From Rhodospirillaceae bacterium bin65 (GTDB lineage Bacteria; Pseudomonadota; Alphaproteobacteria; Bin65), in assembly GCA_002238725.1 (NCBI GenBank), contig MPMX01000001.1, forward strand, positions 1 through 64,000: 64,000 bases of DNA, read 5' to 3'. Below the pieces are notes generated by a model. It worked only from the letters and a program-made list of their open reading frames with translations. It did not search any database and was not told the DNA's origin. This document shows, piece after piece, positions 81 through 21,089 of the stretch. Each line of letters begins with the position of its first letter. Position 1 is the first letter of the stretch. The position numbers were made by a program, and so were the translations under genes.

Positions 81-233
81 TTGCCACCCCGGACGGAGCG
101 CAGCGGAAATACGGGAACCAGAGTCGCCCGACCGAACCAGTCGCCCCTTCGGCTTCGCTCAGGGCAGGCTCCGGACCCACCCTTCGTTGCCACCCCGGAC
201 GGCGCGAAGCGACGATCCGGGGACCAGGAGTCA
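81..233. repeat. Two direct copies of a GC-rich intergenic repeat
   Basis: Two 45-47 base copies begin with TTGCCACCCCGGACGG (81-125 and 187-233) and both end with a CCAGAGTC or CCAGGAGTC-like tail. A related CCCCGGAT/ATCCGGGG element occurs at 2012-2070. No convincing gene lies in 1-386; open frames here show no protein-like composition. Such extragenic elements are common in alphaproteobacteria. Only the repetition is directly seen. Confidence 0.5.
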
Positions 234-386: not shown

Positions 387-401
387 GAACATATATCGAA
401 C
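387..401 (+). promoter_or_regulatory. Probable LexA (SOS) box GAAC-N7-GAAC
   Basis: GAACATATATCGAAC is an exact match to the alphaproteobacterial LexA site GAAC-N7-GAAC (the same as GTTC-N7-GTTC on the other strand). It lies 13 bases before the ATG at 415, in a locally AT-rich stretch (345-400) that looks like a promoter. Its position suggests damage-inducible control of the terminase-like gene. The match is seen; the regulation is inferred. Confidence 0.6.
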
Positions 402-414
402 AAAGGATGCCGCC

Positions 415-1204
415 ATGTCCATTGCCGTACCCGCCGCCCCGGCCGGGACCGCGCCGGAGTCTCCGCCCCCTGCGCCATCCCCGGATGCGCCCCTCACCCT
501 GCGGCAGGAGGAGTTCTGCCGCCACTACGCGGCGACCGGCAACGCCGCCCCGGGGGCGGGGGGATCCCCCCCGCCCGTACGGGGCGACCGGCAACGCCGC
601 CGCGGCGGCGCGCGACGCCGGCTATGCCGAGGGCTCGGCGCGCCAGACCGGCCACGACCTGCTGGACCGGTCCGCCATTGCCGAACGGGTGCGGGCAATC
701 CGGGCGGCCTGGCAGGCGGTCGAACTGGAGGAAAGCCAGATCCTGCTCGGCCGGCTCGAGCAGGCCTGGGACGCGGCGGTCGAGAAGGGCTCGGCGTCGC
801 TGATGATCCGGGTCGTCAAGTTGCAGGCCGACCTGTCCGGCCTCGACCGGCGCCATGCCCACCGGCGCGCCGGCCTGTGGCCCCTGCCGGGAGAAGTGAC
901 CGGAGCAGTATCCGGAGAGGAAGGACCCCGCCCGGCGGATGCAGGCGCGGCGGATTCCGGCCCGCCCATGGGTCCTTTGGCCGAAGCGGTGCGCCGGGGC
1001 CGGCACCGGACCGAGCGGGCGCTCGCCGCCCACCGGGCGAGCCGGATGATCCTGGAGGAATATGACGATTTCGATGAGGCCGACTGGCTGGCGACCGCGC
1101 AACGCCTGCACGCCACCGTCGAGGAGCGCCGGCCCCGCACGCCGGACCGGGCGGCCCCCCCCGCCCGGCGGCGCGGCCCCCCCCGCCCCCCCCCCCCGCC
1201 ATGA
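415..1204 (+). pseudogene. Terminase small subunit-like gene, frameshifted
   Basis: The first 45 codons from ATG 415 end in LTLRQEEFCRHYAATGNAA, the start of the Terminase_2 (phage terminase small subunit) helix-turn-helix. The rest of the domain (AAAARDAGYAEGSARQTGH..LL) continues in another frame from about 601. Between them, 52 extra bases repeat GGCGACCGGCAACGCCGC (531-548 and 583-600) around a GC palindrome and break the frame; removing them restores one continuous protein of about 245 residues. The 3' end runs through C-homopolymers (about 1155-1200), so its terminus is uncertain, and its stop overlaps the next ATG as ATGA. No large terminase or phage structural gene is nearby, so this is an orphan. 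Family assignment is good; the break may be real or an assembly error. Confidence 0.6.
531..600. repeat. 52-bp insertion: 18-bp direct repeat flanking a GC palindrome
   Basis: An 18-base direct repeat (531-548, 583-600) brackets a near-perfect palindrome, GGGCGGGGGG-AT-CCCCCCCGCCC (554-576), centred on GATC. The 52-base offset is not a multiple of three and shifts the host frame. It resembles a slippage or hairpin-driven partial duplication, or an assembly artefact in a GC homopolymer zone. Confidence 0.6.
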
Positions 1205-1746
1205 CGAATCATGACATATCGTTACATTCCGCCACGGACGCGCCGGCGCCGGAAAGCGCGCCGGACAGCGCGCCGGACGCCCCCAACCCGACGAATCATG
1301 ACATTTCCTTACACCGGGCCGGCCTGATGCCGGCGAAGGCGGACGGCGGCGCCCGCGGGCCGGTCGGCAGACCCAAAGCGCCCTACAGGCCGTTCTTCTT
1401 CCGGCCCGAAGACAGCGACGACCCGCCGGCGCCGGACGAGGGCGACATCTGGAAGGACAACGAGGCGCACCTGCACGACCTCAGGGCCAGGGTGGCCAGC
1501 AAGATGGCAGCGTCCGAGCGGCAGAGCCGCGACGCCGACCCCGACGAGCGCCGGTCCGACAAGATGCTGGACGCCGGCGACGTCCTGCCGCCCGCCGGGG
1601 ACCCCTGCCCCATCGAGCGGGCCGCCGCCGAAGAGGAACAGGACTATCTCAAGGAGCTCGCCCGGACCCGCCCGCCGCTGGAGAACCGGACCGCCGGCGC
1701 GTATCTCAGGGAATTCGACTATGTCCGCCCCTGCCGCGGAGACTGA
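1201..1746 (+). CDS. Orphan hydrophilic protein, 181 aa, with repeated TNHDISLH
   Basis: I do not recognise this protein. Its ATG overlaps the stop of the terminase-like gene (ATGA), so the two are probably translationally coupled and should work together. It is hydrophilic, has no signal peptide or membrane segment, and is rich in Asp, Glu, Arg, Ala and Pro. The octapeptide TNHDISLH occurs at residues 2-9 and again near residue 31, encoded by a 23-base DNA repeat with only two mismatches. The C-terminal half (about residues 75-175) is charged and probably helical. Genes next to terminase small subunits in such orphan loci are often lineage-specific. Frame and length look real; function is unknown. 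Confidence 0.5.
   Translation: MTNHDISLHSATDAPAPESAPDSAPDAPNPTNHDISLHRAGLMPAKADGGARGPVGRPKAPYRPFFFRPEDSDDPPAPDEGDIWKDNEAHLHDLRARVASKMAASERQSRDADPDERRSDKMLDAGDVLPPAGDPCPIERAAAEEEQDYLKELARTRPPLENRTAGAYLREFDYVRPCRGD
1204..1313 (+). repeat. 23-bp direct repeats around TCATGACA
   Basis: A 23-base sequence starting ACGAATCATGACAT occurs at 1204-1226 and 1291-1313 with two mismatches. Two more TCATGACA cores lie at 1761-1768 and 1771-1778, just after the gene ends. The copies inside the gene fall in the same reading frame and encode TNHDISLH, so a protein-level or DNA-level role are both possible. Confidence 0.55.
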
Positions 1747-2155: not shown

Positions 2156-3484
2156 CTAGTACGCCAGCGGCTCGATCTGCGCGCCGGCGGCGATCTGGGG
2201 CGCCGACTTGTTGTTGACGATCACCAGGTCGTACTTGAACTTCTTGCCCTTGACCCATTGGCCACCAACCAGCGGCGTCCGGCAGGCATTCTTCACCGGG
2301 TTGCGCCGGTCGCCGAATTTCCACGAGACCGGGCCGACGATCGAATTGTAGTCGGTCTCCTCGATCGCCTTGAGGATGGCTTCGGGATCGCCCGGGTCGC
2401 CGCAACGCTTGAGCACGTCGACCGCGACCTCGATGTTGGCGTGCTTGAAGCCCATCGGCTGGGTCCACTGCTTGCCGGTGGCCGCGATATACGCCGCTGC
2501 GAACTCCGCCGACGACTTGCCGTTCAGCCCGGAGCGGAAGGGATGGGACGGCGACCACCAGACCTCGGTCGTCAGCCCGACGCCGCGGTCGCCGAGCGCC
2601 TCGACGGCGGCCGGGAACAGCAGCGCCTTGGCGATGGTCGCGGCCTTCAGCTGCCCGGCCAGCCCCTGCTGGGCGGCCTGGCCCCAGAAGGTCGAGAAAT
2701 CCGGCGGCGTGGCGAGGCCGGTGAGAATTTCCACGCCCTCTTTCCTGAAGTCGCCGATCTGCCCGCTGAAGTTGAAGGTGCCGGGATTGAACAGGCCGCG
2801 CTGGAAATACTTGAAGCCGCCGGCTTCCATCGGGGGCTTGAAGCCGCGCTTGGGATCGCCGGCGACCACGCCGTCGGAATCGTTGGCGATCAGGGCGCCG
2901 ATCTTCCTGTTGGTGTCCAGATCGTTCCACATGTTCATGAACACACCGATCATGTCGTCGATGCCCCAGAAGAAGTGGTAGGTCCACTTGAAGCCCTTCT
3001 TCGGCGTGCCGCCCCGGCCGAAATAGACCACCTGCCAGGGCGTGTCCGACGTCACGCAGGGCACCTCGTTGGCCTCGCACTGGTCCGACACCGGATTGAC
3101 GGTATCGCCGGACGACGAGCCCATCATCAGGTTGACGTTGTCCTTCAGGATCAGCTCCGCCGCGACCTCGGCGGCGCGGTTCGGGTTCGACTGCGAATCC
3201 TTGGAGACGATTTCCACCGGATAGGTCTTCGAGCCGATCTTGATGCCGTTCTTGAGCGTCGCGCGGGCGTCGGCCAGCACGAACCGGTCGGTCTCGCCGA
3301 ACGGCGCCAGCGGGCCGGTCTGCGGGCTCACGAAGCCGATCTTGACCGTCTTGGCGGCGTGCACCGCCGGCGCGCCGATTGTCGTGGCCGCCGCTGCTGC
3401 GGCCGCGCCGCCGCCGGCCGCCAGAAATTCGCGCCGCCGCATCCGGTTCGGCGCCGGTACGCCTGTCTGCCGCCTCTTCGCCAT
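2156..3484 (-). CDS. ABC transporter periplasmic binding protein, branched-chain amino acid (LivK) type
   Basis: This 442-residue exported protein belongs to the Leu/Ile/Val-binding family (peripla_BP_6, COG0683). A twin-arginine motif RRREFL (residues 16-21) precedes an Ala-rich hydrophobic core, pointing to Tat export. The mature part opens VKIGFVSPQTGPLAPFGE, typical of the family, followed by the ligand-lobe phrase LMMGSSSGDTVNPVSDQCEA. GGAGGAG lies upstream of the ATG. No permease or ATPase gene is adjacent, so it works with components encoded elsewhere. The family binds amino acids but also aromatic acids, amides and urea; the neighbouring HpaH-type hydratase might hint at an aromatic-derived ligand, but that is speculation. 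Confidence 0.85.
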   Translation of the reverse strand: MAKRRQTGVPAPNRMRRREFLAAGGGAAAAAAATTIGAPAVHAAKTVKIGFVSPQTGPLAPFGETDRFVLADARATLKNGIKIGSKTYPVEIVSKDSQSNPNRAAEVAAELILKDNVNLMMGSSSGDTVNPVSDQCEANEVPCVTSDTPWQVVYFGRGGTPKKGFKWTYHFFWGIDDMIGVFMNMWNDLDTNRKIGALIANDSDGVVAGDPKRGFKPPMEAGGFKYFQRGLFNPGTFNFSGQIGDFRKEGVEILTGLATPPDFSTFWGQAAQQGLAGQLKAATIAKALLFPAAVEALGDRGVGLTTEVWWSPSHPFRSGLNGKSSAEFAAAYIAATGKQWTQPMGFKHANIEVAVDVLKRCGDPGDPEAILKAIEETDYNSIVGPVSWKFGDRRNPVKNACRTPLVGGQWVKGKKFKYDLVIVNNKSAPQIAAGAQIEPLAY

Positions 3485-20085: not shown

Positions 20086-21089
20086 CGCCGCGCCCCGTCC
20101 TGGCCCGGCCTGCACTGCGGCTCCTGACGGCGTTCGCCGCCGGCGCCCTGGGAATAGCAGCGGCCATACCCCCGGCGAACGCCGCAAATCGTGCGCTGTT
20201 GCCGGGCCTGCTGCGGCCGGCGCCCGACACCGGACCGGACCGGTCCTACACGCTGGTCCGAAGCAGGTATGTGCGAGCCAAGCCGCGGCTGCGCACCGAA
20301 GAGGCACCCCGGGGCAATTCGCGCAGGGGCCAGCCGGGACCGTCGATCGACCGCCTGGCGTGTAAGGCCTGGAAATATCACGGCGCCGATCAGATTCCGC
20401 GGCCCTACGACCCGGACCGCTATGTCTATTCCGAGGAATACAAGCGCGGTCCCGACCGGCCGGGCCGGGAAGAAGCGGCGCAGCAGGCCGACGCGGCCTT
20501 CCCGCAGCTGATCGACGCCAAGGTCCTGCGCATGCTGCAGCTGATCAACCAGGTGCGCGAGCGCCGCGGCCACACCACCATGAAGCTGGAGCCCCGGCTG
20601 ATGGTGGCGGCAAAGCGGCACAATCTCGATATCGCCCGCCATGCCCTGATGCAGCATACCGGCACGGACTGTTCGCAGCTTGGCGACCGGGTCTGGGACG
20701 AAGGCTACACTTGGAGGCGGATTGCCGAGAACCTGGCCGGCGGCCGGGCGACGGCGGAAGCCACGATGGAGCAATGGACCGGCAGCACCCGCCACCTGAT
20801 GCAGATGACGCTGACCGGGATGACGGAAGTCGGGATCGCTTACGACTACAACCCGAACCCGCCGCGCCACGGTATCCCGATCAAGCATTTCTGGACCCTG
20901 ATTATGGCAGGTCCCGATCCGTGGCGCGACCGCCTCTGGCCGAAGAAGCCGGCGCCGTGTGCCGGGGAGCACTGCCCCGAAGCGGCAAAAGAACCTGCCG
21001 GCGCCGCAAAGACCGAAGAACCTGCCGGGAACGCCGGGAAAGCGGAGGGACCGATCGATCTCCGCGGCGGCGCGACGCGCACGCAATGA
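20082..21089 (+). CDS. Secreted CAP (SCP/PR1)-domain protein
   Basis: A 335-residue protein with an N-terminal signal peptide (hydrophobic 12-34, cleavage near PANAA). The CAP domain spans about residues 145-280: MLQLINQVRERRG, AAKRHNLDIARH..MQHTG with CAP histidines, then WDEGYTWRRIAENLAGG and EQWTGSTRHLMQM...TEVGIAY. The tail after 285 is Pro/Ala/Glu-rich, with the near-repeat KEPAGAAKTEEPAGNAGK. Bacterial CAP proteins are extracytoplasmic; most have unknown function. It is translationally coupled to apbC by a four-base overlap, an uncommon pairing, and is followed by a second CAP gene. Confidence 0.82.
   Translation: MTPRPVLARPALRLLTAFAAGALGIAAAIPPANAANRALLPGLLRPAPDTGPDRSYTLVRSRYVRAKPRLRTEEAPRGNSRRGQPGPSIDRLACKAWKYHGADQIPRPYDPDRYVYSEEYKRGPDRPGREEAAQQADAAFPQLIDAKVLRMLQLINQVRERRGHTTMKLEPRLMVAAKRHNLDIARHALMQHTGTDCSQLGDRVWDEGYTWRRIAENLAGGRATAEATMEQWTGSTRHLMQMTLTGMTEVGIAYDYNPNPPRHGIPIKHFWTLIMAGPDPWRDRLWPKKPAPCAGEHCPEAAKEPAGAAKTEEPAGNAGKAEGPIDLRGGATRTQ

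Follow-up and report, generated by a model that had tools for sequence, protein, structure and literature searches.

The window, that is, the whole 64-kb stretch of DNA that was analyzed, forms the start of contig C27 (321,900 bases) in a genome of 4.29 Mb and 94 contigs, the contig ending at window base 1. Near this end, all on the plus strand, lie a −10-like region (CCTATAT; positions 371 to 377) that is kept upstream of the box in other copies, a LexA-type box (GAACATATATCGAAC; 387 to 401) that is kept in paralogues and congeners, and a gene for a protein resembling the small terminase subunit (TerS) of phages (415 to 1746). The box is exact and stands 13 nt before the ATG at 415, as reported in the first-pass annotation. 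The gene, a member of subfamily I, is an interrupted copy whose intact relatives consist of a single open reading frame (ORF). Its coding region contains two pairs of iterons (TCATGACATATCGTTACA at 1209 to 1226 and TCATGACATTTCCTTACA at 1296 to 1313), and a third pair (TCATGACAATTCATGACA; 1761 to 1778) lies directly past the stop codon, again on the plus strand. On the minus strand, the flanking gene at 2156 to 3484 is an ordinary one that reads as an ABC-type substrate-binding protein and stands outside the system; at the orthologous loci of four congeners, its orthologues adjoin neither a box nor an iteron (0/4). No Rfam RNA family was found in the window. Repeats of the CTTCGRCTTCGCTCAGGGCAGGCTC type occur at window positions 147 to 171 and at L003:600–725, with a tandem arrangement upstream of the copy in G001.

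Relatives encode the TerS part together with the following frame (ORF2) as one open frame of ~310 to 420 codons. The window copy differs from an intact copy by two insertions: 52 extra nucleotides at approximately 549 to 600 (a GC-rich palindrome plus a repeat of the preceding bases), which shift the frame, and a poly-C stretch at approximately 1165 to 1199, 26 nt longer than in the intact copy L021, which changes it a second time. These insertions split the frame and create the apparent ATGA overlap that had been taken for coupling within a two-gene pair; a two-gene operon is ruled out because the relatives carry a single ORF, and the stretch from 1201 to 1746 is the C-terminal part of the same protein. 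Assignment of ORF2 to the PBC domain was also rejected (18.7 bits, versus a cut-off of 25). The insertions may be true mutations or assembly errors. Both are odd in composition (poly-G/poly-C palindromic at 549–600, poly-C at 1165–1199) and possibly assembly errors at the contig end. As assembled, the window locus is a damaged member of a set of gene copies that encode a DNA-binding protein of phage type.

The TerS domain recognized earlier in the window gene is recovered only in the frame after an insertion, where Pfam Terminase_2 scores 27.4 bits (cut-off, 26.1), and the same model scores 40 to 61 bits in all eight family members scanned. A profile search matches the SF6 TerS structures 2cmp, 4zc3, and 3zqp (E values of 4e-8 to 1e-7), and an AlphaFold2 model, confident mainly over residues 21 to 80 (pLDDT 92 to 98; pTM 0.45), superposes on the SF6 DNA-binding domain at 1.0 to 2.1 Å with a TM score of 0.84 by target length. 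Comparison of this model with the PDB gave no match at an E value of 0.001; there are weaker matches to the NV1 and PaP3 TerS, and matches to viral TerS models reach E values of 6e-4 to 8e-4. Viral contigs contain 48 relatives of the TerS domain, and a tblastn comparison of the TerS core with named phages gave nothing at an E value of 0.01. We assign to the protein an N-terminal DNA-binding domain of the SF6 type (Terminase_2).

The gene is multi-copy in six of the seven genomes of the genus. Matches to its TerS part were found in 11 of 61 genomes: the genome itself, five of six congeners and, outside the genus, the remaining four family members and a single one of the 50 genomes from the rest of the class. 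One congener (G006, 96% complete) has no copy of the TerS-like gene. Copies reside at differing places, with one site (G000:C90 / G001:C15) common to two species, where synteny extends over 5.7 kb at 82%. Two copies with both flanks present (L021 and L022) belong to the metagenome-assembled Rhodospirillaceae genome WTGH01; by eye, the ORFs on both sides look like ordinary genes of metabolism and transport, with no phage gene seen within 5 to 6 kb and no integrase, replication, or interference genes beside them. These two copies agree with the earlier view that the locus is not a prophage; the window copy is cut off on its left by the contig end. PADLOC models of anti-phage defence matched none of the five proteins submitted.

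The sequence GAAC-N7-GAAC is the operator bound by alphaproteobacterial LexA. In the window, it occurs twice versus 1.52 times expected by chance, the other occurrence (21018 to 21032) being inside an ORF; the box by itself is at chance frequency there and is not significant. We take it as real because it is conserved across gene copies, rather than from its frequency in the window. An exact box is present within 60 bp upstream of 10 of the 17 g1 genes, and one with a single half-site base off precedes six more (L004 and five genes of subfamily II), so that the predicted conservation before homologues holds; the seventeenth gene, L002, has lost its own upstream region. The control gene recA is preceded by an exact GAACN7GAAC or GTTCN7GTTC in all 10 genomes (counted in the 600 bp upstream of a conserved motif inside the gene). 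Among g3 genes, L050 has the box GTTCTCTTTTTGTTC, and L051 has a version one base off. Judged by operator sequence, the TerS-like genes would belong to the alphaproteobacterial LexA (SOS) regulon.

A repeated octapeptide had been described in a separate second protein. It is indeed present twice in ORF2 (1201–1746), but it is a by-product of DNA: the underlying nucleotides are iterons (TCATGACAWW) phased at 10 bp. Across 10 genes, leucine is encoded by TTA at 15 of 16 positions within iterons (versus 3 of 274 elsewhere), and isoleucine is encoded by ATT or ATA at 17 of 17 (versus 11 of 71). Such use of codons that are otherwise avoided implies constraint at the DNA level rather than the protein level, and we set the octapeptide aside as a protein motif. 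In several genes, the stop codon itself falls inside an iteron. All 12 genes of subfamilies I and III contain iterons (expected, at most 0.12 per gene), and the five genes of subfamily II have an imperfect box throughout, with a single iteron in one of them.

Iterons are also dispersed genome-wide. The iteron pair TGACANNTCMTGACA occurs 64, 55, 65, 50, 83, and 47 times in G000 through G005, respectively, once in G006 (which lacks the gene), and in none of six other genomes; the reversed pattern is absent from all 13. Around the iterons, in intergenic DNA, we find a promoter-like pattern (TTGAC, a spacer of 10 to 12 nt, and GAACATTATATGAAC or GAACANNATATGAAC) that is sigma70-like and overlaps a box. 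These SOS-boxed sites number 13, 17, 17, 14, 14, and 14 in G000 through G005 (n = 89), with none in G006 or the six others and none for a reversed control; the pattern was built on G000, so the counts in G001 through G005 are independent. The arrangement is polar: using a slightly relaxed iteron-pair pattern, a same-strand pair lies within 800 bp downstream of 56 of the 89 promoters, on the opposite strand of none, and upstream of 3, with 33 promoters having no pair within 800 bp. Viewed from the iterons, a box lies within 600 bp upstream at 13 of 20 G000 loci (L108–L127, stretches chosen from the 64 matches with multi-hit places favored), versus an expectation of 0.37 and a maximum of 3 over 200 shuffles. 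A co-directional downstream gene is absent from 13 of the 15 promoter loci with genes listed, leaving most dispersed promoters with no evident product; at L143 and L153, such a gene begins 0.3 to 0.5 kb downstream. Together, iterons and boxed promoters suggest a damage-triggered DNA-binding network that is undescribed: full-text searches of openly licensed papers found no description of one.

The 89 promoters resolve to ~46 sites (repeats may have merged some), of which 28 are present in one genome only and 18 are shared between species. Eight site groups were hand-picked from the promoter-site groups for comparison, and in the four that hold iterons, these are kept at 16/16, 23/24, 22/24, and 19/24 positions, versus 31, 36, 51, and 65% elsewhere. 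Identity in the promoter core at shared sites is partly circular, since the loci were found by that pattern, and only the iteron figures are used; in site group L252/L280, the promoter aligns poorly (5/20). Two further elements accompany the dispersed sites. Palindromes of the AGACCGGTCT type, which we take to resemble TetR-family operators, follow the promoter at 47 of the 89 loci, often where iterons are missing, and our model leaves them unexplained. Between iterons there is a conserved non-coding module of ~300 bp (L118:1818–2131, L108, L112, L113, and L117) consisting of an inverted repeat (CCGGAGCGGAA/TTCCGCGCCGG), an A-tract, and a AGACCGGTCTGT palindrome, repeated at 80 to 95% in G000. 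Among the ORFs near 80 element loci, as read by eye, no third gene recurs except orthologous neighbors.

The TerS-like genes of the sister genus g3 follow the same plan with an unrelated 10-bp iteron word, AAGCCAANNN. The pattern AAGCCAANNNAAGCCAA occurs 86 times in G008, 36 times in G010, and in none of seven other genomes (its reversed control is found once in G001 and twice in G007). The g3 arrays are stereotyped, with steps of 10 and ~32 bp and some members inverted, and a box is present within 600 bp upstream at 9 of 20 array loci, two of which have <150 bp of room, versus 0.29 expected. This word sits at or past the 3′ end of L050, L051, and L041. A third iteron word, CACCTAC, was met once, directly behind the G010 TerS-like gene (L042:1189–1258; steps of 10, 32, 11, and 10 bp). 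The gene is present without TCATGACA iterons in G007 and G008. L031 has no iterons, neither the g3 word nor CACCTAC, and three genes checked in G009 have neither a box nor the tested iterons, such that the network takes in only part of the TerS-like family. The 10-bp repeats of G009 are not claimed as iterons, one pair being within a conserved coding stretch.

On this evidence, the window probably holds an interrupted copy of an orphan TerS-like gene that forms part of a dispersed, SOS-controlled system of protein plus sites. LexA would repress both the TerS-like genes and the dispersed promoters, and the box common to the two predicts their joint derepression on DNA damage, when the TerS-like protein would be made. 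That this protein recognizes the iterons best explains why they lie inside its gene and why a related genus has another word in their place, behind the gene as well as at dispersed sites. Aligned on adjacent iterons along a single face of the helix, within its own gene and at the scattered sites alike, it would act much as phage TerS does on pac. What follows is less certain: the likeliest outcome would be nucleoprotein arrays with an origin in packaging initiation, maintained as a selfish element family or, alternatively, as a network that organizes the chromosome or marks DNA for packaging at times of damage. In SPP1- and SF6-type phages, pac is positioned in or beside the TerS gene. Our system resembles these in its DNA-binding domain (by profile and fold) and in having sites in or beside the gene, and differs in the long low-complexity C-terminal tail, the lack of an adjoining large terminase subunit (TerL), and the chromosome-wide sites. 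More tentatively, and with somewhat less than even confidence, we propose a damage-triggered, genome-wide network built from a domesticated packaging-initiation protein, in which an orphan TerS acts with tens of pac-like arrays, most of them behind an SOS-boxed promoter, and in which protein and word have changed together between genera.

Other readings have to be weighed against this one. We consider it rather unlikely that the elements are simply a selfish repeat family, with the TerS copies as its complete members and the intergenic sequences that have box and iterons as shortened forms, all dispersed by some as yet unseen route. The parallel is with REPs and their proposed spread by RAYT proteins, the likeness being one of small intergenic repeats tied to a single dispersed protein family; RAYT is a transposase and REPs are palindromic, whereas here there are a TerS fold, direct 10-bp iterons, and SOS boxes. 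Mobility would account for repeats between iterons that are common to loci, for alignments that often start or end at iterons, for the window copy lacking a counterpart at the four orthologous sites, and for the many copies at contig ends, and the 28 promoter sites confined to one genome fit mobility as well as function. Yet no recurring transposase or recombinase was seen by eye near the 80 element loci, no element ends or target duplications are defined, the 18 shared promoter sites and the TerS site at G000:C90 / G001:C15 are common to species, and iterons are conserved at shared sites while their surroundings diverge.

An unlikely possibility, argued from analogy, is that the TerS fold has been reused in a damage-switched network that would organize the chromosome or handle replication forks by the logic of MatP/matS or Noc/NBS, in which, as here, one DNA-binding protein serves tens of chromosomal sites. 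The tens of intergenic sites per genome, with their stereotyped and helically phased arrays, accord with this, as do the 13 of 15 listed promoter loci without a co-directional downstream gene. However, the present system is SOS-boxed, has a phage-like fold, and has sites whose turnover between species is high; the sites lie on unordered contigs, which do not give their chromosomal distribution.

We regard as quite unlikely the idea, also reasoned by analogy, that upon damage the orphan TerS would bring the TerL of a helper phage or gene transfer agent (GTA) to the pac-like arrays and so direct neighboring host DNA into particles, in the way that SaPI TerS serves its island. GTA packaging is not sequence specific; RcGTA and other GTAs share with our system an alphaproteobacterial setting, phage derivation, and a relation to packaging, and differ in that no head-tail cluster was seen beside the copies checked here. 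TerL was searched genome-wide as two families, PF03237 and phrog_2. Of the seven genomes of the genus, a single one has PF03237 above cut-off (G000:C37), and that ORF scanned alone falls just under it (21.4, versus 22); phrog_2 matches occur in G000 (best, 97 bits), G001, G003, G004, G006, and G009, and the G001 match is a TerL by PF20441 (43.1 bits). In G001, the TerL-like gene by PF20441 (G001:C6:191499; L321) shares its contig with a TerS copy ~45 kb away. The candidates in G000, G001, and G009 favor a packaging role, and the matches in several of these genomes do not support a large terminase that is always absent, a point that the first-pass annotation had proposed to check; nevertheless, the matches are not beside TerS copies, none was noted by eye among the ORFs flanking L021 and L022, and the 322-kb contig of the window has none. 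TerL is thus not universally absent, nor is it the next-door partner. Further against packaging, G002 and G005 match neither phrog_2 nor PF03237 though both have the network, and viral contigs gave no match to the triple pattern of iterons. For LexA control of a TerS, the nearest precedent, which also speaks for this reading, is operon I of SaPIs: this operon includes terS, is under LexA control, and encodes a TerS that works with the TerL of the helper (PMC5052747). The two share a terS without its own TerL and an SOS operator. SaPIs, however, occur as single islands that carry a packaging site of their own together with integrase, replication, and capsid-redirecting genes, as opposed to the many dispersed copies and sites found here with no such neighbors seen, and membership in the SaPI/PICI group or in a prophage is not supported.

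Very unlikely, in our estimation, is that the promoters produce LexA-controlled non-coding RNAs, with the TerS-like genes merely co-regulated and the iterons serving another factor. The promoter-like sequence (TTGAC-N10..12-GAACANNATATGAAC) and the usual lack of a co-directional downstream gene (13/15) would suit such transcripts, but at the shared cyclase site conservation is poor beyond the promoter (31%), no Rfam family other than a tRNA exceeds the gathering score near the elements, and iteron words lie in or behind TerS-like genes in two genera. That the locus is a plain prophage remnant, for which the homology of its TerS domain to phage proteins can be adduced, is extremely improbable and already largely refuted, given that the gene is multi-copy, its box is conserved, ordinary genes lie on both sides of two copies, and one copy has kept its place between two species.

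TerS proteins are known from packaging motors, whose substrates are viral genomes. If the proposed SOS-controlled network of TerS-like protein and sites is real, a multi-copy, SOS-boxed TerS with dozens of conserved chromosomal sites would represent a new use of this fold, and would tie the SOS response to a genome-wide DNA transaction. The differing iteron words of the sister genera would, in turn, offer a natural test of how TerS and its sites co-evolve.
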